A stretch of DNA of 25,242 nt from a virus, in the IMG/VR virus record IMGVR_UViG_3300027133_000016, positions 1-25,242 of that record; one strand, written 5' to 3'. Shown here piece by piece: positions 2,332-24,571 of this stretch. Below the pieces are notes generated by a model. That model was not told the origin of the DNA. It made no database searches and worked only from the letters and a program-made list of their open reading frames with translations. The number at the start of each line of letters is the position of its first letter. Position 1 is the stretch's first letter. Both the position numbers and the translations under genes were made by a program.

Positions 2332-3518
2332 TTTCTTGGCTTTAATAAGTTGGCTTTACTGAATTCTGCACGATTAACAATTTTAGATGGTTCTTGTTTA
2401 CCTTTGTGCGTATAATTTATAACATATCCCTCAGGATCTGTTTTCTTATCTCCAATATGATGCTCAAGACCGCCAGTATGCTGGTTTAAATTCTTAACTA
2501 AAAGGTTTTTACCTTGCTGTAAATGCTGATGCATTTTAAATAGATTCTCATAATGCTCTTTATTTTTCTCAACATGCGCAGCGTGACCAGAACCAAGATT
2601 ACGCTGAGCAGTTTGTCCCTTCTCAGACTTTAGTTTAGACGCTTTCTTTTCATAAACATCCTGAATATGTTTAATGAATCCTTTTGCGTTTGGTTTTGTA
2701 TCTTTGCGAACTGTTTGATTGATGTAAGTTCCCAAATGTCCAGCATCACCTTTGTGTTCTGGATGGATCGCACCATACATCTTATCGCCGTGTTTATCAT
2801 GAATATCTTTTGCAGCATTCATGTGGCTTTGGAATCTTTTCTGATCTGCTTGAGTATATTTAACTTTGCTAGTATCATGCTCGGCACCAGCAAGATGCAC
2901 ATCTTTGTGTTGACCAAAACTTTTCATATCAGGATGAGGAGTTGCTTTCATCGAAGCAAAATCTTTACCCTCATATTTTTGGTGAACAACTAACCCAAAT
3001 TTAGATTGGGCTGTTTTCTTGGCTTCATCGCCATGCGCAGTATACTTAATTGTATTTGGTGTATAAGAAGCAGTTCCCTTCTTCTCATCATATTTAACAT
3101 CACCCTCAGAGTGCATAACGTCACCCTGATATACACCTTGCTTAGGTGCAACCTTTGGTAGATGTTTTAGAGCATGCTTTAATTTTTCTGCGAGACCTGG
3201 AGCATGACCATGGTTCTTGTCAATGTCCTTAGCAGTATAGTTGATTTTTGGGTTTTTATTGAACGCTGACTTGGAAGCAACAAAGAATTTTCCAGTTTCT
3301 GGATGCTTTCCAAAAACCAATGATGATCCGTCATATTTCATGGTCAGATCGCTGGATTGTTTCCCAGCTTTAATGTGTTCATGTCCATGGTTTAGTGCAC
3401 CAAGAGCATGTTCGAACCCTGAAGAACCATGGAATAGAGGGCGATCCTCTACATGATGGATGTGCTTCAGTTTCTCTTCTTCGGTTTCTTCTTTAAGGAA
3501 TGTTTGGAACGACTTCAT
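2328..3518 (-). CDS. Ligase-like covalent nucleotidyltransferase, basic, with capsid-targeting-like leader
   Basis: A 396-aa protein from the ATG at 3518 (a longer reading begins at 3527). Ligase-superfamily motifs can be followed: KYDGSSLVFG with lysine about residue 61 (motif I, KxDG), GVYQGDVMHSEG about 128-139 (motif III), FGLVVHQKY (IIIa), EGYVINYTHKG near 363 (motif IV) and SKIV near 378 (motif V). It therefore probably forms a lysyl-AMP intermediate and joins or caps a nucleic acid end. The spacing between motifs III and IV is unusually long and filled with His/Lys-rich sequence. I recall relatives in marine T4-like phages annotated as unknown function. MKSFQTFLKEE at the N-terminus matches the next two genes. 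It is first in its transcription unit; the host-type -10 lies only about 10 bases before the first ATG. Confidence 0.8.
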   Translation of the reverse strand: MKSFQTFLKEETEEEKLKHIHHVEDRPLFHGSSGFEHALGALNHGHEHIKAGKQSSDLTMKYDGSSLVFGKHPETGKFFVASKSAFNKNPKINYTAKDIDKNHGHAPGLAEKLKHALKHLPKVAPKQGVYQGDVMHSEGDVKYDEKKGTASYTPNTIKYTAHGDEAKKTAQSKFGLVVHQKYEGKDFASMKATPHPDMKSFGQHKDVHLAGAEHDTSKVKYTQADQKRFQSHMNAAKDIHDKHGDKMYGAIHPEHKGDAGHLGTYINQTVRKDTKPNAKGFIKHIQDVYEKKASKLKSEKGQTAQRNLGSGHAAHVEKNKEHYENLFKMHQHLQQGKNLLVKNLNQHTGGLEHHIGDKKTDPEGYVINYTHKGKQEPSKIVNRAEFSKANLLKPRK

Positions 3519-4478: not shown

Positions 4479-5194
4479 TATTTAGGTCTGCGCTGTCTAC
4501 GAATAACTTTCTCGTATTTGCGATCCCACTTACCGATCTGGTCAATGATCTTTCTTGGAGATTCATTGTTTCGGAAGTCGTAGTCGAATGTCTTGAGGAA
4601 ATAGTGGAGGGTTTTTGAATCGCGAGATTTCTTGCAGCGATTTAGTAGCGTATTAATATCTACGTTTGGTCTTAGTACTTTGAAGTCTAGGTATACACAA
4701 TGAGCATATGCTTGTATCTCATCGAACTCAGAAAGGTACTTTCTTTCTGCGTCTTTTTTGGCTATACCAACTTTCTTATAAGGAACAACATAATTGCTCC
4801 ATGTATCATCACGTCTATCATATTGCATGAAGTGAATTATCTCATGCATCAAAGTTTGCAATAAACGAAACTTAAACTTTTCCCAAACTTGGTCATTGAA
4901 ATTAAATGTATCAAATTTGGTTGTATGTATTATTAAAAGTGACTGTCTATTTTCTGGATCATACTCACCACCAATACAAACATACTTCTCAGTCCAACTA
5001 GCCTTAGACTTCTCTTCTCTCCATACAACTTTAGTTCGCCACTTTTTAAGATAGTTGGCTAAACCTTTTGAATCGTTTCTATACTTGTCTAGATCCTTGA
5101 GGACTTTTGCTGGAACAAGTTTAGCCCTAAATGGACGCTCATAAAAATTGAGCATGTCCATCCAGTCGGAGTTATAATTTTCCAGGAACTTCAT
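4478..5194 (-). CDS. Putative zinc metallopeptidase (HExxH)
   Basis: The ATG at 5192-5194 (MKFLENYNSDWMDML) is the likely start because AGGG lies just upstream and it follows the HAD stop by 8 bp; a longer frame from 5245 would overlap the HAD gene by 43 bp. The 238-aa protein contains LMHEIIHFMQ with His117, Glu118 and His121, the zincin HExxH motif, and a downstream acidic helix LSEFDEIQAYAH that could give the third zinc ligand. I see no signal peptide, so it would act in the cytoplasm or in the virion. The family is not one I can name; it is not obviously SprT. The C-terminus is strongly basic (KVIRRQRRPK), which may bind nucleic acid. Catalytic activity is inferred from the motif alone. 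Confidence 0.7.
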   Translation of the reverse strand: MKFLENYNSDWMDMLNFYERPFRAKLVPAKVLKDLDKYRNDSKGLANYLKKWRTKVVWREEKSKASWTEKYVCIGGEYDPENRQSLLIIHTTKFDTFNFNDQVWEKFKFRLLQTLMHEIIHFMQYDRRDDTWSNYVVPYKKVGIAKKDAERKYLSEFDEIQAYAHCVYLDFKVLRPNVDINTLLNRCKKSRDSKTLHYFLKTFDYDFRNNESPRKIIDQIGKWDRKYEKVIRRQRRPK

Positions 5195-5202
5195 ATTCAG
5201 CC

Positions 5203-5655
5203 CTATTTGATAAAAGGAACTGGCTCCTGCATACCCCTTTCCCAAAAATACAACTCAACAGTTTGGGGTAACAGTTTGCGCATCCCTCTCAGTACTTTTT
5301 TGTTGTCTTCATAATGTCGTTGTATACCCAATTCAAGCACCCTTTCGGACTTAAATCGGACTACATTTTCAACAGTTCTGGTATTATCTAGAAGATGGAA
5401 GGAAATTACTCTTCCACCATAATATTTATTCAGCCAGTCTTTTGTGATTGTATGTATTCTTGGCTCTCGTTTTCTTGCAGAAATGGCGTAAAATTGGGTC
5501 TCAACTGGCTCTATAAGTTTCTCGGCATTCTCGTACCAATCGTACAAAAAGTCCTTCCTAGCCTTTCTTTGAACCCCATTCATTTTACCCCACTTCATTT
5601 CGGATGGCGGTGGCTGAGCAGCCAGAACCCCATCGATGTCATAAGAAACTATCAT
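5203..5655 (-). CDS. HAD-superfamily phosphatase
   Basis: All four HAD motifs can be placed in this 150-aa protein: motif I YDIDGVLA with Asp6 (nucleophile) and Asp8, motif II AISAR with Ser59, motif III Lys102 in RFKSER, and motif IV YEDN with Glu116-Asp117. There is little room for a cap domain, as in polynucleotide 3'-phosphatases and magnesium-dependent nucleotide phosphatases. The start overlaps the glycosyltransferase stop as ATGA with no ribosome site of its own, so the two are translationally coupled. That coupling suggests a shared pathway, for example processing of a modified nucleotide or removing a phosphate released during glycosylation, but the substrate is not visible. Confidence 0.8.
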   Translation of the reverse strand: MIVSYDIDGVLAAQPPPSEMKWGKMNGVQRKARKDFLYDWYENAEKLIEPVETQFYAISARKREPRIHTITKDWLNKYYGGRVISFHLLDNTRTVENVVRFKSERVLELGIQRHYEDNKKVLRGMRKLLPQTVELYFWERGMQEPVPFIK

Positions 5656-6659
5656 AGGATTAATGGATCAACCTTTCCAGTCTTTTCTACAACAGCTTTC
5701 TGCTTTTCCCAGATATTTCTACGGACTTCCTCTGGGAATGACGCAAACTTATCCAACTCCATTTTGGTATCTGTAGGGAAACACCAATTCAAACCATTGT
5801 TACCTTTCGGTGCGCAGACAGGAATACCTGCATAAAGAGCATGATATGCACGACCAGTTCTCCAACCAGACTTCTTATGTTTATCGTCATAGACAGCTAG
5901 ACAGCCATAGAACTGTTGATAGAACTTTCTACGATCTCTTTGCTGTGGGTTTGGTAGAATCTCAAGTGCTTCAAAATCATCCCATTCAGCTTCTTTACCT
6001 GCAACTTGAAGACAACGTGAAGAAGTAAACTCTTTGAAGTATTTGGTTCTGCCATTTGGTCTACCAATGTAAACCACCTTCTCAATATTACCTGGATGAA
6101 ATTCAGCAAACTCCATACCAGATGCCATGGGTAAATCAACAGTTGTAGTTCCGATAGGACACTTCAGGATAGTTGCAACTTCATTACACTCAGTCGCATT
6201 GGCTGCAATAGTCCAACGTGACCAATCTTCATCAGGTAACAACTCCCAAAGGAATGGAAGATCTGGATCGTCATTCAAAAAGATGATGCGACCCTTATGT
6301 GCTTTAATCATCTCAACAGTTTTATCCCAGTACTTCTGATAGAACTGCAAATTAGTTCCACCAAACTCAAGCATGAGAACATCACAATCTTGATATGTGT
6401 CAAATGTTTCAAACCCATCATCTTTGGTTGCATCAGTTGCTTCTGATAGTGGAATGATTCGATGACCAAAATCAAGCATGTTCTTGAACAGAGCAACACG
6501 TTTCTCTACCCATGCTCCACGAACACCATTCTCTTTGTTGGTCAAACCAATCTTACCAGAAACTCTGCGATAACCAATTTTAGTTCCAGTATTGCTAGAG
6601 TTCTTTGAATAGAACCACTCTAACAACCTTTCTTCACCTAGAAACTCATGTAGTGACAT
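5652..6659 (-). CDS. GT-B glycosyltransferase, candidate DNA-base glycosyltransferase
   Basis: A 335-aa protein with the two-lobed GT-B layout. The N-terminal lobe holds a Rossmann-like half with repeated hydrophobic strands (CDVLMLEFGG near 92-101, RIIFLNDDPD near 124-133). The C-terminal lobe has KVVYIGRPNGR and a donor-binding region GWRTGRAYHALYAGIPV at 265-281, typical of nucleotide-sugar enzymes. Size is close to the T4 DNA glucosyltransferases (351 and 400 aa). It starts 8 bp after the TET/JBP-like dioxygenase stop with AAGG upstream. In other phages a glycosyltransferase next to a TET-like oxygenase decorates hydroxymethylated cytosine, so I infer sugar transfer to the oxidised base. 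It could instead glycosylate a protein or surface glycan. Confidence 0.8.
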   Translation of the reverse strand: MSLHEFLGEERLLEWFYSKNSSNTGTKIGYRRVSGKIGLTNKENGVRGAWVEKRVALFKNMLDFGHRIIPLSEATDATKDDGFETFDTYQDCDVLMLEFGGTNLQFYQKYWDKTVEMIKAHKGRIIFLNDDPDLPFLWELLPDEDWSRWTIAANATECNEVATILKCPIGTTTVDLPMASGMEFAEFHPGNIEKVVYIGRPNGRTKYFKEFTSSRCLQVAGKEAEWDDFEALEILPNPQQRDRRKFYQQFYGCLAVYDDKHKKSGWRTGRAYHALYAGIPVCAPKGNNGLNWCFPTDTKMELDKFASFPEEVRRNIWEKQKAVVEKTGKVDPLIL

Positions 6660-6667
6660 AATAAACC

Positions 6668-7969
6668 TTACGCAAAAAATTCATCAAGTGATCCAGACTT
6701 CATTGATTCTGGATGATATTTAATTAGGATTTCATCTCCAAGTTTTTCACGACAATAGTCGTACCACTCGTCAGAAGTCCACATACCTTCGGAAACACCA
6801 TTCCAAAGTTTACGTTGCATCGGATGTTCAGGATTCTTGCGACGTTGTTCAACGAAGTCATAACGACAGTTCTCATATTCCCAAGAACCCAACTCAAGCA
6901 TCTTCTCACGGAAGTAGCAAACCAAACTGATACGCTCAGAACCTTCTTCACAAACGATAGGAGTGTTGCCATGCATAACATCATGGTTGTTAATCAATAG
7001 CAAGTCGCCTGGACGTGGATTAACAGCAACACGATACTCAGGTGCAATCAAATAACCACCACTGTAACGTCCATCATTTGACAAAGTTAGTAGATTTGAA
7101 AGACCACTATTTAAATCGCCAACGTCATAGTGAGCAGCAGTTCTGAATGTTTTATTCACAGTAACAGTTGTGAATGGAGTTCCAGGAACTAGGAAACGAG
7201 GATCAACTTGTCTCGCTGCTTTCATCTGTGCTTCATAACGCTGTGGTAGTAGATCCCTAAAACCATTTGACAATGTTTGTAGGAATGGGTAAGCAAGTGC
7301 AAACTTCTCAGGATTCTTGGCAGTGTAAGATGTTGCACGACCATAAGGAATGCGAGGATAACGATCGAACCAACCTGCGATGCCAGAATAAACTGAGTTA
7401 GCGTAAGTGGTTGCACAAATCAATTCATCAGCAACAAAGTTTGCTTCTTTAATTTGTTCTTGTCGTGGAAGTGTACGCACTTTCTCAACCCACTGATCGA
7501 AATTAAAATTGGTTGACTTAGTTCTTTCAATCGACCAAACATTATTGCGATTAGATGGAGTAGGTGGTTTACCCTTATAGCGTTTGATAATATCTTCTAC
7601 AGGATCTCCTGCAAGACCAGAGTATGGGTCAAGGAAGTATTCAACCATCTCAGATTCATACTCAGTAACCCATTCACGATTACCCAACTTCTCACCACGT
7701 GGACCTGCTGCTGCGCCACGATTCTGTGTTTCAGTTGCAGCTTCACGAAGACCTGCATACGCTTGGTCTTGTTGTTCTTTGGTGAAGAAGTTCTTACGGA
7801 ACTTCAATACAATCCTGTCTTCATTGATAGGATCTTCACCATAAGGTGCTGGCATATAAACATCAGTATCTTCTTCGATAAGATGGTCGTAATGATTCTC
7901 GTCAACGAATTGACCAATCAAATGTTTACAATCAATCTTTTTATCAGCGACAATAACTTTAACTGTCAT
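6668..7969 (-). CDS. TET/JBP-family 2-oxoglutarate/Fe(II) DNA dioxygenase
   Basis: A 433-aa protein whose C-terminal half has the TET/JBP signature: FRTAAHYDVGDLNSGL with iron ligands His280 and Asp282, then GGYLIAPEYRVAV, then the distal ligand His333 in VMHGNTP, and the 2-oxoglutarate-binding Arg346 in ERISLVCYF. TET enzymes oxidise 5-methylcytosine and JBP hydroxylates thymine in DNA; phage members are known to make 5-hydroxymethylcytosine for further modification. The N-terminal 200 residues are not recognised. The last seven residues, SLDEFFA, closely match the polymerase tail SLEDFFG, a clamp-binding peptide in T4-like phages. The start has GGAGAG four bases upstream. It sits between gp41 helicase and the glycosyltransferase. 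Which base it modifies is unknown; no methyltransferase is in the window. Confidence 0.88.
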   Translation of the reverse strand: MTVKVIVADKKIDCKHLIGQFVDENHYDHLIEEDTDVYMPAPYGEDPINEDRIVLKFRKNFFTKEQQDQAYAGLREAATETQNRGAAAGPRGEKLGNREWVTEYESEMVEYFLDPYSGLAGDPVEDIIKRYKGKPPTPSNRNNVWSIERTKSTNFNFDQWVEKVRTLPRQEQIKEANFVADELICATTYANSVYSGIAGWFDRYPRIPYGRATSYTAKNPEKFALAYPFLQTLSNGFRDLLPQRYEAQMKAARQVDPRFLVPGTPFTTVTVNKTFRTAAHYDVGDLNSGLSNLLTLSNDGRYSGGYLIAPEYRVAVNPRPGDLLLINNHDVMHGNTPIVCEEGSERISLVCYFREKMLELGSWEYENCRYDFVEQRRKNPEHPMQRKLWNGVSEGMWTSDEWYDYCREKLGDEILIKYHPESMKSGSLDEFFA

Positions 7970-7978
7970 TTCTCTCTC

Positions 7979-9376
7979 CTAAAACTTAAATCCACTAAAC
8001 TCGTTCTCACTATGTAGTCGTTTACCAAAATCTGATTTATCAAACAATGGTTCGTCTTTTTCTTTAGTTCCAACATCTGATAGCCCTGCTTGCGCAGAAA
8101 CTTCAACATCATATAACTTCATTTTAGATCTATCGATACCAACGACAAACCTCTTGTAGAAATTTGGGTCGTTGTAACGATTCTTCAACTGCTTAACGAT
8201 AATCTGATTCAACTGCTCAAGTTCTTCATTACTCACAAGTGCGAACATGAAATCAGCTGTCGCAGGGAGTCCAAAAGATTCTGAAGTGTCCTCAAGTCCT
8301 GGGTCTGAGTTTGTAAATCCAGATCGAGTTGTTTGAGTTGCACTAACAATAGGTACGTTGTATTCAACTGCCAGTCCCCTTAGTTCTTCAGCGATAGCCT
8401 TAATATATGTATAAGAGTTTACACCATGGGTTTGTTTCATTCTAGATGAAGCACAGATATTCAGATAGTCAATAAAGATAATATCTGGAGCAAACTCTCT
8501 CTTAAGTTTTAACTCTTCCAACAAAGCACGGAAGTGACCAGCATGAGCACCTGCAGTTGGATACTCTTTGACAATCAGTGTTCCCTGTGTTTTTGTAGCA
8601 ATCTTCTGTAGACGTGAATCAAAGATATCCCGATCAACAACTTTCAATTCATCCATGGTTAGGTTAAGTAAGTTTGCATCGATACGTTCAGCGATACGTT
8701 CTTCAGCCATCTCCATTGTTATGTATAAAACATTTTTACCCTGCATAAGAACACTGGCTCCAACGTGACACATAAACAACGATTTACCAACACCTGTTCC
8801 TGCCAAAGCAATGTTCAAAGTTTTCTTACTGAGTCCACCTTTGGTGATTTTGTTGAACATCTCAAGATCGAAAGCAATTTTCTCTTCCACCCTGTGATAA
8901 AAATCATACCTATCATTAGCATCCTGAATGTAATCATGACCAACATGATTATCAAAGCAAACACCAAGTGCTTCACTAAGAATAGTAGGTATCGCATCTT
9001 GTTGATGCACTTTGTCCCTACCATCGATAATTTGAATTGATTTAAGAATCGCATTATAAACTGCCCTGTCTTTACAAAACTTTTCAGTCTGACCAATCAA
9101 CCATTCTTCATTAGGTTCTTTATTAGTCAACTGTTTGGCATATTCTTGGAACTCAGGAACTTCTTTGTCAGTTAGCCCTTTGATATTGCCAATCTCAATA
9201 GCCAGAATCTCAGGTGATGCTGGCTTATTATACTGCTCAAAAAACTCAACTAAGATTTTAGCGATAGCACTTTCTTTACGATCTGCAAAATACTCAGTCT
9301 TTAAATGAGGAACTGCCTTACGACAGAACTCCTCATTGTGAATCAGGTTCGATAGGATCGCCTGTTCTATTCTCAT
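7979..9376 (-). CDS. 41: Replicative DNA helicase gp41 (DnaB-type)
   Basis: The gp41 helicase unwinds DNA 5'-3' on the lagging strand and works with primase gp61. The 465-aa product has an N-terminal DnaB-like helical domain (AILSNLIHNEEFCRKAVPHL), then a RecA-type motor with Walker A GTGVGKS at about 193-199, an ITMEMAEERIAER H1a-type element, Walker B IIFIDYLN, and SATQTTRSG, the DnaB H3 region. Length matches T4 gp41 (475 aa). I chose the ATG at 9374-9376, preceded by AGGTGG, over an upstream GTG at 9385; either way it overlaps the preceding small gene. It follows uvsX and precedes the TET dioxygenase, placing DNA modification in the replication operon. Confidence 0.93.
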   Translation of the reverse strand: MRIEQAILSNLIHNEEFCRKAVPHLKTEYFADRKESAIAKILVEFFEQYNKPASPEILAIEIGNIKGLTDKEVPEFQEYAKQLTNKEPNEEWLIGQTEKFCKDRAVYNAILKSIQIIDGRDKVHQQDAIPTILSEALGVCFDNHVGHDYIQDANDRYDFYHRVEEKIAFDLEMFNKITKGGLSKKTLNIALAGTGVGKSLFMCHVGASVLMQGKNVLYITMEMAEERIAERIDANLLNLTMDELKVVDRDIFDSRLQKIATKTQGTLIVKEYPTAGAHAGHFRALLEELKLKREFAPDIIFIDYLNICASSRMKQTHGVNSYTYIKAIAEELRGLAVEYNVPIVSATQTTRSGFTNSDPGLEDTSESFGLPATADFMFALVSNEELEQLNQIIVKQLKNRYNDPNFYKRFVVGIDRSKMKLYDVEVSAQAGLSDVGTKEKDEPLFDKSDFGKRLHSENEFSGFKF

Positions 9377-10780: not shown

Positions 10781-11335
10781 TTATTTTGGGTTAGATTTGT
10801 GATGTGGCACATCGAATACAAAGGTTACACGAACTTCATTGCCAACATTTTCAGTTCCATGTTGCAATTTATTATTGAACCACAACAAAGTTCCTGGCTC
10901 TACTATGTATTCCTCATCTCCAACCATATATTTGTATCTACCTGCGATGGAGAGATGGTAACGATCTCTGGTCTGATAATAACTACCGATGTCTATATGT
11001 TTGCCGACAGAACCACCAACTGGCAATGACAAGAATCCACAACGTGAATGGTCGTGGAAGTTTCGTTTCATAAATCTAACAATTTCTGTGTGTCTGTTAT
11101 ACGCAGGTGTTTTAATGCAATACTCAGTGTCACCAACATATTGCGTTTCATTCTCAACACCACCAATAACTAATTGCAAAACACCTGCATTAATTTGTGG
11201 GAAGTCAAATTCTTTCTGGACTGTTGAAGCACCTTTCATCTGACCTTCAGAGTTCCAATCATCTTTGTAAAGTTTTAATTGAGCAAGAATCTTTGATACG
11301 TTGATTCCTGTTTTAATCACTTTAATATTATCCAA
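10781..11335 (-). CDS. Aspartyl/asparaginyl beta-hydroxylase-like 2OG-Fe(II) oxygenase
   Basis: The C-terminal half shows LPVGGSVGKHIDIG (HxD iron-binding pair), RYHLSIAGRYKYMVGDEEY, GTLLWFNNKLQHGTEN with the distal His, and RVTFVFD with the 2-oxoglutarate Arg, the pattern of the Asp/Asn beta-hydroxylase family. Those enzymes hydroxylate proteins or small substrates. The start is unusual: the polymerase C-terminal codons supply GGAGG, and a TTG at 11333-11335 six bases further gives MDNIKVIKTGIN (184 aa) overlapping the polymerase stop. Longer frames from ATG 11368 or 11377 lie deeper in the polymerase gene. It is the last gene before the uvsX promoter. The substrate is unknown; it may be a phage or host protein. 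Confidence 0.8.
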   Translation of the reverse strand: MDNIKVIKTGINVSKILAQLKLYKDDWNSEGQMKGASTVQKEFDFPQINAGVLQLVIGGVENETQYVGDTEYCIKTPAYNRHTEIVRFMKRNFHDHSRCGFLSLPVGGSVGKHIDIGSYYQTRDRYHLSIAGRYKYMVGDEEYIVEPGTLLWFNNKLQHGTENVGNEVRVTFVFDVPHHKSNPK

Positions 11336-13817
11336 AGAAATCCTCCAATGATGACTTGGCTTCAACATTCCAACCAATCGGCTGGATTACAGTTTGCATT
11401 GCATCGAGGAATGTCTTTTCAAACTGTGTTTCATAATCAATAAAGTCATGCAAACCAAACTCTTTCGGTAGATTTTGCGGGAATGCGATAACGTCTTCCT
11501 GGAATGGATTTGGTTTTCTCACATATACAAACTTAACCTTCTCACCCTCTTTAATCAACTGATACTTCTTTTCAAGTCCAAGTTTCTTGACATAATGATT
11601 GTAAAGTAGTGAACCCCTTACATGGATAGGTGTTCCCTTGGTATAGATCGGAGAACCAGCATATGTTCTCAAACCATTTACGCCACGTGGGAAAGCAATA
11701 TCCTCTACTGGCATTTGGTTGAATTCTTCACGGAACTTTTCGATATACGAGTGTAAGTCCGCTTGACTGCCCTTGAGAATAACTTCGATCGAATCTTTAA
11801 GTTTGTCACGAATAACAGCAGGTGTACTTGACTTGACCATTTCAAGCCCCATAACTTTGAGTTTCGGTTTAGCATACTGCACTCCTTCAGAATTGTGTAC
11901 GTTCAATATGTATCTTTTCTTGGCAGTCCAGATACCCTTATCGGCAAGAACCTCACGTTTCATAATCATCTTCTGAGAGTATGCGTTCATATACTCACCC
12001 AACTTTTGATACGTTTGGTCAATGAATGGTTGGAAGATCTCTTCGCAAACCTTATCCATATATTTAATTTTCTGGTCGTCAGTTTTACCTTCGCAAACTT
12101 TCTCGATCAGTTCTTCCAATGTTAGATAGATTGAATCTGTGTCAATGGCGATAACAAAGTCTTTACCTTCTGTCTTCATGACCTTGTTGAGATAACGATT
12201 AAACTCATTTGCCATCCAACGAATCGATAGTTGACCACTGGTAGTAATACCTTCTGCCATGCGAATATCAAAGTAACGGAAATACTGATTACCCATCGCA
12301 CCATAAGCAGAGTTGAGAGCAATCTTCATTGCCATCTGCAGGTTGTTCAGTCGACTAATCTCTTTCAGTAGTTCTTTCTTGGACTTGTCGTTCTGATATT
12401 CCTGTTCAACTTTCAGCATCTGCTTCTTGAACTTACTGCGGTCTGAATACATCTTCTCCATCAACTCAGGCATGAACCCTTTGATATCTCTGCGGTAAGT
12501 CCAGCCATTGGCAGTCAACGCAAGATCCCTACGCTTACAATATTCAGTATCAACTTCTTGATTGAGCAGACGTTCAACGTTGCATGAGATCTTCTCACCA
12601 CTCAATGTTTCTGGTGAGATGTTATACTGCATAATCAAGTGAGGATATAGACTGTTCAAGTCAAAAGAAGCAACCCACTTATGCATACCCAGCAATGGGT
12701 CTTTAACGAAAGCACCTTCAAATGCTTCATTCTTACTGGAACCAACCTTGGTAGGAATGGCGATATGTTTCTTACGCAGGTGATTATAGATGATGGCGTC
12801 CCACATTCTTACCTGAGAGAATACATCTTCATAGTTAATCTTTGCATTGTATGCCATGGTAAGACACAACTCAATCAGTCGCATCTTATCTTCAAGTTTG
12901 TCAACCAACTCTACGTCGTGAATGTTATACTCAACGAAGTCTTGCCAGTAATTTGTATAGAAGTCTTTAAATGTATCTCCAGGGTTTTCTTTCTTGGCAT
13001 CACCAAGTTCTTCACCTGCGATATAATCTAGACGATAGGACTCTTGCTTTTGATAAGTGAACTTCTTATACAAGTCAAGATAGTCAAGTTGGCTTACACC
13101 ATGGATGTCAAATGAAATTTCTTCGTTACCTTTAACAAAGATCTTTCGTTCATTGATATATCCCCATGGTGAAAGTTTGGCTGCGATTGCTTCGCCAAGT
13201 TCACGCTGAATACGTTTAGTCAAATATGGTACGTCAAAGAATCCAATGTTCCATCCAGTTAGAACATCAGGATAATTCTGTTGCCAGAAAATCATAAACT
13301 CTTTGAGAAGTTGTTGCTCGTCTTTGCAACGGAAGTAAGTAACATCCTTGCGAGTATTTTCAAACTCACGTGTGCCGAAAGTGATAATACTCTTAGATTG
13401 AAAGTCTTTGATTGTGATTAGTAAGATCTCTTCATTCGCCTGTTTGACATCAGGGAATCCATCTTCAACTGCAGTTTCAATGTCGATGGTGAACACTTTA
13501 ATTTGTTCCATATCCCAACGAACATCACTCTCATAAGTGTCGCTGATATATTGGTGAACATAGTTAGTGTTTCCGTAGACGTTGAAACCCTGCACTTCTT
13601 TGTAACGATCAAAGAACTCACGTGTTTCTTTTACAGTTCCAGGTTTAACTTCATCGATAACTTGACCATCGAGTGTGCGCCACTGGCTCTCTGCTTTATT
13701 TGATGTTACATAAAGTGTTGGGTAAAAGTCGATCTTACGTTGAAACGCTCTGCCGTTTTCATAACCTCTGACACACATTTTGTTACCAAAGGGAAATACG
13801 TGCGTATAAAAAATCAT
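11328..13817 (-). CDS. 43: Family B DNA polymerase gp43
   Basis: The replicative polymerase with proofreading. The 829-aa protein carries exonuclease motifs DIE at 112-114, NIGFFD at 190-195 and YNIHD at 297-301, then polymerase motif A DLNSLYP (386-392), motif B KIALNSAYGAMGN (498-510) and motif C DTDS (559-562). It is a little shorter than T4 gp43 (898 aa). It ends SLEDFFG, a C-terminal sliding-clamp-binding peptide as in T4/RB69 polymerase. Its start overlaps the upstream small gene by 4 nt (ATGA) and lacks a clear ribosome site, so it should depend on coupling. The frame is intact with no intein or intron. Confidence 0.97.
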   Translation of the reverse strand: MIFYTHVFPFGNKMCVRGYENGRAFQRKIDFYPTLYVTSNKAESQWRTLDGQVIDEVKPGTVKETREFFDRYKEVQGFNVYGNTNYVHQYISDTYESDVRWDMEQIKVFTIDIETAVEDGFPDVKQANEEILLITIKDFQSKSIITFGTREFENTRKDVTYFRCKDEQQLLKEFMIFWQQNYPDVLTGWNIGFFDVPYLTKRIQRELGEAIAAKLSPWGYINERKIFVKGNEEISFDIHGVSQLDYLDLYKKFTYQKQESYRLDYIAGEELGDAKKENPGDTFKDFYTNYWQDFVEYNIHDVELVDKLEDKMRLIELCLTMAYNAKINYEDVFSQVRMWDAIIYNHLRKKHIAIPTKVGSSKNEAFEGAFVKDPLLGMHKWVASFDLNSLYPHLIMQYNISPETLSGEKISCNVERLLNQEVDTEYCKRRDLALTANGWTYRRDIKGFMPELMEKMYSDRSKFKKQMLKVEQEYQNDKSKKELLKEISRLNNLQMAMKIALNSAYGAMGNQYFRYFDIRMAEGITTSGQLSIRWMANEFNRYLNKVMKTEGKDFVIAIDTDSIYLTLEELIEKVCEGKTDDQKIKYMDKVCEEIFQPFIDQTYQKLGEYMNAYSQKMIMKREVLADKGIWTAKKRYILNVHNSEGVQYAKPKLKVMGLEMVKSSTPAVIRDKLKDSIEVILKGSQADLHSYIEKFREEFNQMPVEDIAFPRGVNGLRTYAGSPIYTKGTPIHVRGSLLYNHYVKKLGLEKKYQLIKEGEKVKFVYVRKPNPFQEDVIAFPQNLPKEFGLHDFIDYETQFEKTFLDAMQTVIQPIGWNVEAKSSLEDFFG

Positions 13818-21567: not shown

Positions 21568-21945
21568 TTATTTTCCACCTTTATATAATTTTTGTTCTAT
21601 CATAGCCAACTGCTCATCAGACAATACACTCAATGCCTGTTTAGCCTTTTCGTTAGAATACCCATAGTATTCTTTCACTAAACGTAAAGACTCAGAAATG
21701 GCATCCTTCTTAGACCATTTACTGAATCTTTTCTTTTTAGTAATACTATTTAGCAAAAACGAAAATTGCCAGTTCTTTGGAATCCCATAATGGCGATTCA
21801 TCTCGTTGGCGTACAATAGGGTATCTGGAAAATAAGACAACCCTTTATTCACGATCCAAGCATTATAATCCTTATGTGCTTGGGGATCTTCGAATAGGTT
21901 TTGTTTGGTGAAATTTATTGCATTAATATAATCAAATGGACTCAT
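21568..21945 (-). CDS. 62: Clamp loader small subunit gp62
   Basis: gp62 joins four gp44 subunits to load the gp45 clamp. The 125-aa protein begins MSPFDYINAINFTKQNLFED, continues through NAWIVNKGLSYFPDTLLYAN and HYGIPKNWQFSFLLNSITKK, and ends in a helical region LSDEQLAMIEQKLYKGGK. The SYFPDT...LNxxxxxxxxxKQxxFLL-like arrangement is typical of T4-type gp62. It is shorter than T4 gp62 (187 aa). Its ATG overlaps the upstream stop by 4 nt, so it is coupled to the small membrane protein rather than directly to gp44. Confidence 0.9.
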   Translation of the reverse strand: MSPFDYINAINFTKQNLFEDPQAHKDYNAWIVNKGLSYFPDTLLYANEMNRHYGIPKNWQFSFLLNSITKKKRFSKWSKKDAISESLRLVKEYYGYSNEKAKQALSVLSDEQLAMIEQKLYKGGK

Positions 21946-22286: not shown

Positions 22287-23240
22287 TTATTTGAATTTAC
22301 ACTGAGCCATAACTTCAGTCAGTGCTGCCATAATATTTATCTCTTGGTCTGCTACGAATGCTGCTTTATATTGATAGTCTGCAAGAATAAGAATCAACTG
22401 AGGAATGCTCACTTCTTGCATGTTGCCAACTGCATTATCATACAACTCACGAAACAATGGAGCAGTACCCAACTCGCTATTCTTTCCAACCCACTTGCGA
22501 ACTTCACCGAAGTTCTTTTCCTTCATATCTTTGACAAGTTGTTTGTAAGATTCTGCACTGGCATTGATAAGGATACCAGAATCAATCTTACCAGAAACAG
22601 AGTAACGCTGAAGTTCGTTCAGGATACGACGATAGTCAGGGAAGTGTTTAATGATGAGTTCAGAAACCACCTTTGGATCAAACTCAATATTCTCTTGTTT
22701 GAGAATCTGCGCTGCACGCTTGAAGAATGTTGCAGCAATTTCCTGCTTGTCTTTAGATTCAATCTTGAATTCAATCACAGCACAACGACTATGCAATGGT
22801 TCAATGATTCGGTTCTTAAAGTTACAGGTGAAGATAAAAGAACAGTTGCCAGAGAACTGCTCAATAAAGTTACGAAGAGCAGGTTGCACTGACTCTGCAT
22901 TCATATAGTCTGCTTCGTCAACGATAACTACTTTCTTGGCGTCAGTCAGGGATACAGTAGAAGCAAAGTTCTTGATTGTAGTTCGCAGAGTGTCAATTGA
23001 ACGACCTTCATCAGATCCGTTAATCATAATAAAGTCTGCTCCGACTTCATTGCAAAGTGCTTTGGCAATAGTAGTCTTACCAACACCAGCTGTTCCGCAG
23101 AACAAAAATGTTGGTAGCTGTCCTTTAGATACATATTCCCTGAATGTCTGTTTCAACGATTCAGGGAGAACACAATCATCAATTTTCTGTGGGCGATATT
23201 TCTCTACCCAAAGAAACAAATCATCACGTGATTCAATCAT
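22287..23240 (-). CDS. 44: Clamp loader large subunit gp44 (AAA+ ATPase)
   Basis: The ATPase that opens and loads the sliding clamp with gp62. The 317-aa protein has the AAA+ order: WVEKYRP at 11-17 (clamp loader box II), Walker A GTAGVGKTT at 49-57, Walker B VIVDEAD at 105-111, sensor 1 FTCN near 137-140, and the SRC arginine-finger motif at 151-153, then a helical collar domain. Length equals T4 gp44 (319 aa). AAGGA lies seven bases before the ATG, in a TAAGGAATTTGTTATG context that resembles T4 RegA target sites. Confidence 0.95.
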   Translation of the reverse strand: MIESRDDLFLWVEKYRPQKIDDCVLPESLKQTFREYVSKGQLPTFLFCGTAGVGKTTIAKALCNEVGADFIMINGSDEGRSIDTLRTTIKNFASTVSLTDAKKVVIVDEADYMNAESVQPALRNFIEQFSGNCSFIFTCNFKNRIIEPLHSRCAVIEFKIESKDKQEIAATFFKRAAQILKQENIEFDPKVVSELIIKHFPDYRRILNELQRYSVSGKIDSGILINASAESYKQLVKDMKEKNFGEVRKWVGKNSELGTAPLFRELYDNAVGNMQEVSIPQLILILADYQYKAAFVADQEINIMAALTEVMAQCKFK

Positions 23241-23267: not shown

Positions 23268-23912
23268 TCAAAAATACCTATCATTGGGTGTATAGGTATC
23301 TACATCAACAACCCCAAAATTAAACGAAAAAGAAATCCTATCACCTTCAGATTTATTTTCTCTTACGGCATGCATAATATTTGCAGGTGCTAAAACTAAC
23401 GCACCTTCAACTGGTGTAACGTAATGTTTAACTGCAGTTATATTATTTCTGTTATGGAAATATTTGGCTGCATAATTAAAATATGTACTAATATCTGGAT
23501 GCAAATAAACCAGATCGCCAGATTCTAAAGGTACTTTAGGGTAGTATGATCCAGCTAATACATTCCCTGGATGTGGATGGCTTTCTAGATTAGATCCTGG
23601 AGGATATATATTGAACCAACAAGAATCCAAAACCAAATTAACTGTTGGTCTTGGATTTAACTCATTAAAACAAGTCTTTGCATTTTCAAAAATTAAACCA
23701 ATTAACTTTTTAGTTTCTGGGAATGCTAAAAAGTCTTTTTTAGTTAAATTATAACTCTTCCACTTTAAAGAATATTTACTATGTCCCTCTGGGTTTCTAT
23801 GCTCAGGATCTTTACTTCTTAGTGTATAAGCATGGCTAGATATTTTTTCATTATCTATTGGCAGATCTTTCCACTGCCAAATAGGATAGGTGAATATATC
23901 TGTTCGAGTCAT
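23268..23912 (-). CDS. Putative 2OG-Fe(II) oxygenase (prolyl-hydroxylase-like fold)
   Basis: From the ATG at 23910-23912 it is 214 aa (a GTG at 23921 overlapping gp45 by 4 nt is an alternative). Motifs: WFNIYPPGSNLESHPHPGNV with the HxH/HxD-type metal-binding pair in SHPHPGN, AGSYYPKVPLESGDLVYLHP, then APANIMHAVRENKSEGDRIS with the distal His and the 2-oxoglutarate Arg, and SFNFGV. This matches the family of putative 2OG-Fe(II) oxygenases found in many marine phages. If the metal pair is H-P-H rather than HxD, one ligand is atypical. The substrate is unknown. It sits between the clamp and clamp loader genes. Confidence 0.82.
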   Translation of the reverse strand: MTRTDIFTYPIWQWKDLPIDNEKISSHAYTLRSKDPEHRNPEGHSKYSLKWKSYNLTKKDFLAFPETKKLIGLIFENAKTCFNELNPRPTVNLVLDSCWFNIYPPGSNLESHPHPGNVLAGSYYPKVPLESGDLVYLHPDISTYFNYAAKYFHNRNNITAVKHYVTPVEGALVLAPANIMHAVRENKSEGDRISFSFNFGVVDVDTYTPNDRYF

Positions 23913-23917
23913 TGATC

Positions 23918-24571
23918 TCACTCAAATGTAGAGTCAGCTTCAACGGCTACATAATAAACCAAATCACCAGCACCTTTGAAGCGAGAGATCTTCTTGGAAG
24001 AAATGCTAACATCATAATCTCCAGGAAGCATCTTTAGGTTCTCAACCTTCAAGTTTGCTTTGAAAGTTTTGTTTGTGGTACCAACAGTTTCATTGAAACT
24101 ATTTGCGGTAGCATTCTTCTTATCGCCAACGACAGCAATGATAGTTGAACCATCACCGATGATTGATAGGTCTTCACTGCGAAGAACACCTGCAGTCTTA
24201 CGAAGCATATCCAACTGAGTAGCAGTTAGTTTGAAGTTAATCTCTGCTTCAGGGAATGTGATTGCTTTCTGCGGAGCAGTCAATACTTCAGGTGATGCAG
24301 CGAAGTATTTAATCGTACTCTTACCTTGTTTGATTGTAACGAACTTCTCACCGAACTCAAGTTCAGGATCTTCGAACAAAGACATGGCACCCAAGAACTC
24401 ATTGAGATCGTAGATGCCAAAGTCGGGAAATGTTTCTGCCACTGTAGTGTCAGCCATCACATTTTTCTGTGATGAGATGGTTGCAAGTTTATTACCTTGC
24501 TTCAACAACAGATTGCTATTAATACCAGCAAAGTTTTTAATTACTGCAACTGTTTCTTTAGATAACTTCAT
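23918..24571 (-). CDS. 45: Sliding clamp gp45
   Basis: The trimeric ring that holds polymerase on DNA and, in T4, activates late transcription. The 217-aa protein begins MKLSKETVAVIKNFAGINSN and has the repeated clamp fold, with FPDFGIYDLNEFLGAMSLFE in the first domain and TATQLDMLRKTAGVLRSEDL in the second, ending DLVYYVAVEADSTFE. Length is close to T4 gp45 (228 aa). AGGAG lies six bases upstream of the ATG. It is the first gene after the promoter at 24612. Confidence 0.95.
   Translation of the reverse strand: MKLSKETVAVIKNFAGINSNLLLKQGNKLATISSQKNVMADTTVAETFPDFGIYDLNEFLGAMSLFEDPELEFGEKFVTIKQGKSTIKYFAASPEVLTAPQKAITFPEAEINFKLTATQLDMLRKTAGVLRSEDLSIIGDGSTIIAVVGDKKNATANSFNETVGTTNKTFKANLKVENLKMLPGDYDVSISSKKISRFKGAGDLVYYVAVEADSTFE

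Follow-up and report, generated by a model that had tools for sequence, protein, structure and literature searches.

The DNA analysed here, a stretch of 25,242 nucleotides from a virus (IMG/VR record IMGVR_UViG_3300027133_000016, positions 1 to 25,242; hereafter the window), carries a gene for a TET/JBP 2-oxoglutarate/Fe(II) DNA dioxygenase alongside genes for a family-B DNA polymerase, a sliding clamp and a clamp loader (Table 1). The dioxygenase matched the Pfam family Tet_JBP (PF12851) at E=3e-24 with 85.5 bits, the curated cut-off being 34.9, and gave a human TET2 profile match at E=1e-5. Its nearest folds in the PDB were CcTet, CMD1, TET2 and NgTET1, and by these similarities it is a member of the TET/JBP family. 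Residues H280, D282, H333 and R346 were invariant in an alignment with 20 relatives; by analogy, the first three would be the HxD...H iron ligands and R346 the arginine that binds 2-oxoglutarate. Several homologues in GenBank (KU682439.2, KF301602.1 and MG450654.1) are labelled 'SNF2 DNA repair protein' yet match Tet_JBP. Two further genes for 2OG-Fe(II)/cupin-type oxygenases lie in the window at 10781-11377 and 23268-23921. The gene directly downstream of TET perhaps encodes a glycosyltransferase, judging by GT-B-like sequence features seen by eye, and neither ADDT nor TAGT was found in the window.

Table 1. Features of the window that bear on the TET C-terminus and the T4-type replisome
Feature	Coordinates	Strand	Evidence and remarks
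TET/JBP 2-oxoglutarate/Fe(II) DNA dioxygenase gene	6668..7969	minus	433 aa, stop codon included
SLDEFFA codons, proposed gp45-clamp-binding tail of TET	6671..6691	minus	Sequence and conservation among relatives
Linker from enzyme body to tail (KYHPESMKSG region)	6692..6727 (borders approximate)	minus	Alignment, positional entropy, pLDDT
Gene directly downstream of TET	5652..6659	minus	335 aa; no match in Pfam or PHROG; ends KVDPLIL, without tail
Family-B DNA polymerase, T4 gp43 homologue	11328..13817	minus	829 aa; Pfam DNA_pol_B, 9.5e-27
SLEDFFG codons of the polymerase C-terminus, presumed clamp-binding epitope	11331..11351	minus	Sequence; ORF ends ...AKSSLEDFFG*
gp45 sliding clamp, proposed docking partner	23918..24571	minus	217 aa; Pfam gp45-slide_C, 8.1e-10
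gp44 clamp-loader large subunit	22287..23240	minus	Pfam Gp44_lid, 1.8e-16
gp62 clamp-loader small subunit	21568..21945	minus	Pfam Phage_clamp_A, 7.3e-13

Because gp45, gp44 and gp62 are all encoded in the window, its replisome is of the T4 type. The clamp matched the T4 gp45 structure (1czd) over its full length at E=7e-26, as well as RB69 gp45 (1b77/1b8h), and the polymerase of the same phage in record G010 matched T4 gp43 at 1.2e-136. Within this setting the TET protein ends in a hydrophobic and acidic peptide (...MKSGSLDEFFA*), which is of the same kind as the end of its own polymerase (SSLEDFFG) and the T4 termini of gp43 (ASLDFLFG) and gp55 (SLDFLYEAND). The positions and residues given for both tails in the original prediction were exact, and the likeness that it had drawn to the T4 clamp peptides holds as well. 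The two other oxygenases of the window lack such an end. The corresponding motifs at the C-termini of T4 gp43, gp55 and gp33 bind gp45, sit on unstructured linkers and are interchangeable (PMC2988020), and the name sliding-clamp-binding motif (SCBM) has been given to them (PMC7892883). The TET tail and the T4 motif are alike in their C-terminal or near-C-terminal position, in the pattern [ST]L[DE]x[FL][FY], in the variable linker before it and in the presence of gp45 in the same phage. They differ in that the T4 motif reads LDFLF or LDFLY and belongs to the replication and transcription proteins gp43 and gp55, whereas the TET type has the consensus LxxFF and sits on base-modifying enzymes, where clamp binding is putative. 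Homologues of gp55 from six of seven gp45-bearing records likewise have a segment of the type LDDFIG, LDEFIG or LENFFDE near the C-terminus.

The segment that joins the tail to the enzyme body differs in sequence and length between relatives. AlphaFold2 confidence fell towards the C-terminus of TET (mean pLDDT of 61 and then 42 in the last blocks), and residues 428-433 were modelled as a short helix at pLDDT <50; the tail is accordingly predicted to be floppy. The tail does not have the glutamine that opens a PIP-box (QxxLxxFF); the window TET reads K-S-G-S-L there, and 64 of 72 distinct TET tails have A, S or K three residues before the leucine. The tail has the LxxFF core in common with the PIP-box, but for want of this glutamine we do not place it in that class.

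Relatives of the window TET retain the tail while its wording changes. All 38 intact C-termini retrieved in a first search of viral contigs carried the motif at their end, even at 41% identity, in forms such as SLDEFFA, STIEEFFA, TLDSFFG, SSLESFF and SDLDAFF. In a larger set 116 ORFs clustered with TET, from which two frame-broken ORFs and three from phages without detectable gp45 were left out; a terminal LxxFF was present in 104 of the remaining 111 ORFs of comparable loci, a set that includes some contig-end fragments and many near-copies. The leucine and the two phenylalanine positions varied by 0.18, 0 and 0 bits at the amino-acid level, as against 1.96, 0.83 and 1.00 bits at the codon level, across 72 distinct codon tails, and linker positions -3 to -7 varied by 1.9-2.7 bits in amino acids. 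Fixed residues, drifting codons and a loose linker together indicate purifying selection on the tail peptide. A tree of 45 non-redundant TET sequences requires three changes in tail presence or absence and would fit a single gain with two losses, several of the divergent rows being long branches. No TET relative was confirmed among the bacterial genome contigs searched. The co-variation of TET and polymerase tails that had been proposed as an alignment check was not borne out residue by residue, only the LxxFF core being common; Caulobacter phage Cr30, in which the polymerase ends ADLSSLFD and TET ends GATLF, is a suggestive single case.

Tail and clamp also go together across phages. We detected gp45 in all ten tested records behind tailed TET loci, and S-CBWM1, HTVC112P and P12024L, in which there is no detectable gp45, have TETs without a tail, as do all 27 further TETs of the HTVC112P type. 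We then estimated the background by scanning 1170 predicted genes in eight gp45-bearing records with a strict tail pattern ([STAND][LI][DEGKSQN].FF.?$). The pattern picked out 17 genes, of which eight encode TETs and seven polymerases; the other two encode an ADDT-like protein and a tail-tube-like protein. The eighth polymerase of these records ends KIDDFF. As 16 of the 17 are a polymerase, a TET or an ADDT-like protein, the TET tail is more than a chance ending; the tail-tube-like protein (GSLKNFFG) is presumably a chance match. It was set aside as unrelated, together with the other LxxF-type ends of structural proteins (SAPLDFFLG and a family of ~242 aa ending LEGLxSFF). This last family (G001 7960-8691 and similar in G003-G005) is conserved, has a CPxC...C/H region and is probably a virion structural protein.

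The tail recurs on other enzymes that modify DNA, which the original prediction had overlooked. Among 64 ORF families of four or more members around TET, and apart from a weak nuclease-like cluster ending SLLKAFAS that was not counted as tail-bearing, an LxxF or LxxFF end was in the majority only in the polymerase (46/47), TET (104/116), TAGT (16/16), ADDT (44/50) and two GNAT acetyltransferase families (44/45 and 10/11), ADDT and the GNATs having a weaker variant with a single F followed by a variable residue. Of the other 1440 ORFs around TET, just three have an LxxFF end. They encode an ADDT-like protein (L031), a glycosyltransferase (L040) and a Dam methylase from phage C48C1, each of them an enzyme of the DNA-modification type. 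A search with this Dam returned 76 relatives, Dam proteins encoded beside gp43; 58 ended in LxxFF and seven more in LxxF, after a hypervariable linker. TAGT of phage DLP6 ends LSSFFN. TAGT, DNA polymerase and Dam are consecutive and all tailed at two loci with no TET nearby (L298 610-4885 and L300 610-4885). At a further locus a tailed TAGT follows a gene that by eye resembles T4 gp42 dCMP hydroxymethylase (L189, 4827-5516 and 5974-6807), so the tail also occurs outside TET pathways. Since enzymes of unrelated folds bear it, the tail has been acquired repeatedly. It was absent from T4 Dam, T4 alpha-glucosyltransferase, T2 TAGT and the TAGT of the 40-kb phage ctUhy936, all of which we inspected.

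Of the two GNAT families beside TET, the first (L018 2333-3013 and 40 similar) ends PSLEEFLV, with AlphaFold2 pLDDT <50 for its last nine residues, and the second (L065 3909-4508 and similar) ends VDLNSFL. We also noticed a BglII-like restriction endonuclease (PF09195, 5e-12) directly after a Dam-type methylase in T4-like contigs (L244, L245 at 4876-5406 and L246 at 2873-3403), which ends NNIENFFE, and a PD-(D/E)XK-like protein (L285) that ends GLGEFFG; both are possible clamp-docked nucleases.

Close homologues of the window TET nearly all keep the tail; it is missing in two lineages inside the tailed clade, absence from close homologues being what the original prediction had named as counting against it. 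In one lineage, L184-L188, the TETs share 56% identity with the window TET, have lost the tail and end EEGISEHNRLVES. There, gp45 was found in one of the records, the polymerase ends ANLEEFFG, and the next gene after the tailless TET is a TAGT that ends STLEEFF. The other is phage Cr30, in which gp45 is present and the TET tail is degenerate. Outside the tailed clade on the tree, the L190 TET (48% identity) is also tailless and lies beside a tailed TAGT. A frameshift hiding the tail was considered for the Cr30, L184 and L190 TETs, and the other reading frames showed none. The TET tail is thus dispensable in some lineages, and these three cases, tail loss in L184-L188, degeneration in Cr30 and absence in L190, are points against docking. 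As a conjecture, an adjacent TAGT could supply the single clamp contact that the enzyme pair needs where TET is tailless.

We consider it very likely that TET docks on gp45 through this tail, as a sliding-clamp-binding motif, and that docking directs oxidation mainly to freshly replicated phage DNA, with the clamp probably a shared platform. Docking is supported because the peptide is of the same kind as in gp43 and T4 gp55, is conserved in diverged TETs, is absent where gp45 is absent and recurs on unrelated modifying enzymes. Seven or eight residues at the very end of TET would act as a clamp-binding motif like those of T4 gp43, gp55 and gp33, and the flexible linker would let them reach the hydrophobic patch of gp45, so that TET could travel with clamps loaded on phage DNA. 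Loading takes place on replicating phage DNA, so a docked TET would be carried to new phage DNA, and pyrimidine methyl groups would be oxidised mainly there, away from host DNA. Each subunit of the trimeric T4-type clamp offers one site. These sites may be shared or exchanged between the polymerase and the modifying enzymes, and gp45 probably acts as a platform for successive base-modification steps by TAGT, Dam, an ADDT-like protein and probably ADDT proper and the two GNATs. We infer that TET binds gp45, acts at the fork and prefers phage DNA, and likewise the order of events and the handover between enzymes. Of the earlier proposal that TET rides the clamp and acts just behind the fork, the docking is well supported by the sequences, and the placement at the fork goes a step beyond them, as late transcription uses this clamp too.

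This last point leads to another reading, in which the tail binds gp45 for a different purpose, either to reach late-transcription clamps or to compete with gp43 and gp55 and so limit the use of the clamp. Since gp45 is common to the gp43, gp55 and gp33 tails (PMC2988020), the tail alone cannot separate these processes; however, tails on base-modifying enzymes of unrelated folds fit delivery of an enzyme to DNA better, and although this is not decisive we regard such a purpose as unlikely. The partner might also be the host beta clamp, the polymerase or another TET subunit rather than gp45, given that LxxFF resembles the core of a PIP-like motif and that the tailless L184 TET adjoins a tailed TAGT, which makes enzyme-enzyme contacts possible. 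We find this very improbable, as the gp43 and gp55 of these phages have a tail of identical type, as the TET tail is linked to the presence of gp45, and as TET phages without gp45 infect bacteria that have a beta clamp too, yet their TETs are tailless.

Two further readings do without a clamp. Short hydrophobic C-termini can be degrons in bacteria, and the TET end might be one of the Lon, ClpXP or Tsp type that keeps TET low, its likeness to the polymerase being coincidental. However, the same peptide ends nearly every polymerase in these loci, the L-[DE]-x-F-F pattern is position-specific, gp55 homologues carry the related segment with more residues after it, and TETs of phages without gp45 have no tail; a degron is therefore highly improbable. 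Barely conceivable is a functionless tail kept through recent common descent or through overlap with the next gene, even though the TET stop codon overlaps the start of that gene in 77 of 109 loci. Codons vary where residues are fixed, the FF persists beside six or more different families of downstream gene and in loci without gene overlap, the window among them, and the tail occurs independently on non-homologous proteins; codon drift, varied neighbours and the non-overlap in the window together rule out an artefact of overlap or recent descent. Docking on gp45 for modification of new phage DNA remains our preferred reading.

Known clamp-linked modification enzymes offer a comparison. T4 alpha-glucosyltransferase binds gp45, as shown in vitro (Sommer 2004, cited in PMC13216743) and confirmed by pull-down (PMC13216743). 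Like TET, it is a phage DNA-modification enzyme on the same clamp and has been linked to the idea of replication-coupled modification; it differs in that it ends FDIITK, without a tail, and is a glycosyltransferase acting on hmC that is incorporated as a nucleotide. As it binds gp45 all the same, clamp binding does not need a tail. The ratio of alpha to beta glucosylation in T4 is set mostly by expression and enzyme activity and not by this contact (PMC13216743), so the functional gain from the TET tail may be modest. Mammalian Tet1 belongs to the same TET family and has no C-terminal tail of the LxxFF kind. An interaction of Tet1 with PCNA has been reported and replication-dependent recruitment seen, but this recruitment ran via Uhrf1, and the putative PCNA-binding peptide of Tet1 failed to localise to replication sites (PMC9440122). 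The statement that such a tail had not been described for TET enzymes therefore stands for the clamp tail, for which no prior description was found, and is qualified by the reported Tet1-PCNA interaction. Our literature search for a clamp motif in phage DNA modification or on a phage dioxygenase found no description, its reach stopping short of subscription papers. In eukaryotes, Dnmt1 binds PCNA via a PIP-box/PBD. There too a short clamp-binding peptide recruits a DNA-modifying enzyme to newly replicated DNA, the differences being that Dnmt1 is eukaryotic and a methylase, not an oxidase, and that the PIP-box glutamine is absent in phage TET.

Phage TET enzymes have reportedly been studied by Burke et al. 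2021 together with C5-methyltransferases and tailoring glycosyltransferases. The order of TET followed by tailoring enzymes is shared with the loci described here, but no C5-methyltransferase was found in the gp45-bearing TET records tested here, so the substrate may differ. As a source of 5mC, a C5-methyltransferase (PF00145) was sought in 15 viral records (G001-G015) and in DLP6, Cr30, C48C1 and S-CBWM1, and none was found. Among ten records including T4, the thymidylate-synthase family (PF00303) was found only in Cr30 and T4, Cr30 being the only TET phage of the two, and ADDT (PF18724) was detected in 8 of 13 records, once below the family cut-off. ADDT is named for amino acid:DNA transfer. 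These three observations make thymine a candidate substrate, possibly oxidised to 5-hydroxymethyluracil, with divergent methylases as an alternative. More tentatively, and with somewhat more doubt than conviction, we propose that gp45 may carry the whole hypermodification line on new phage DNA, in which TET (perhaps converting thymine to 5-hydroxymethyluracil) would be followed by TAGT, ADDT and GNAT, with Dam acting on adenine.

The clamp-type tail on phage TET suggests that clamp-linked modification, known from Dnmt1 with PCNA and from T4 alpha-glucosyltransferase, extends to TET oxidation. Direct clamp recruitment of TET has been reported in mammals, where the peptide could not be confirmed. 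A terminal LxxFF in a gp45-bearing phage may also serve as a marker that flags unknown genes as DNA-modifying enzymes. Modifying enzymes hooked to the replication clamp would provide a simple, testable mechanism for the full and prompt self-modification of phage DNA.
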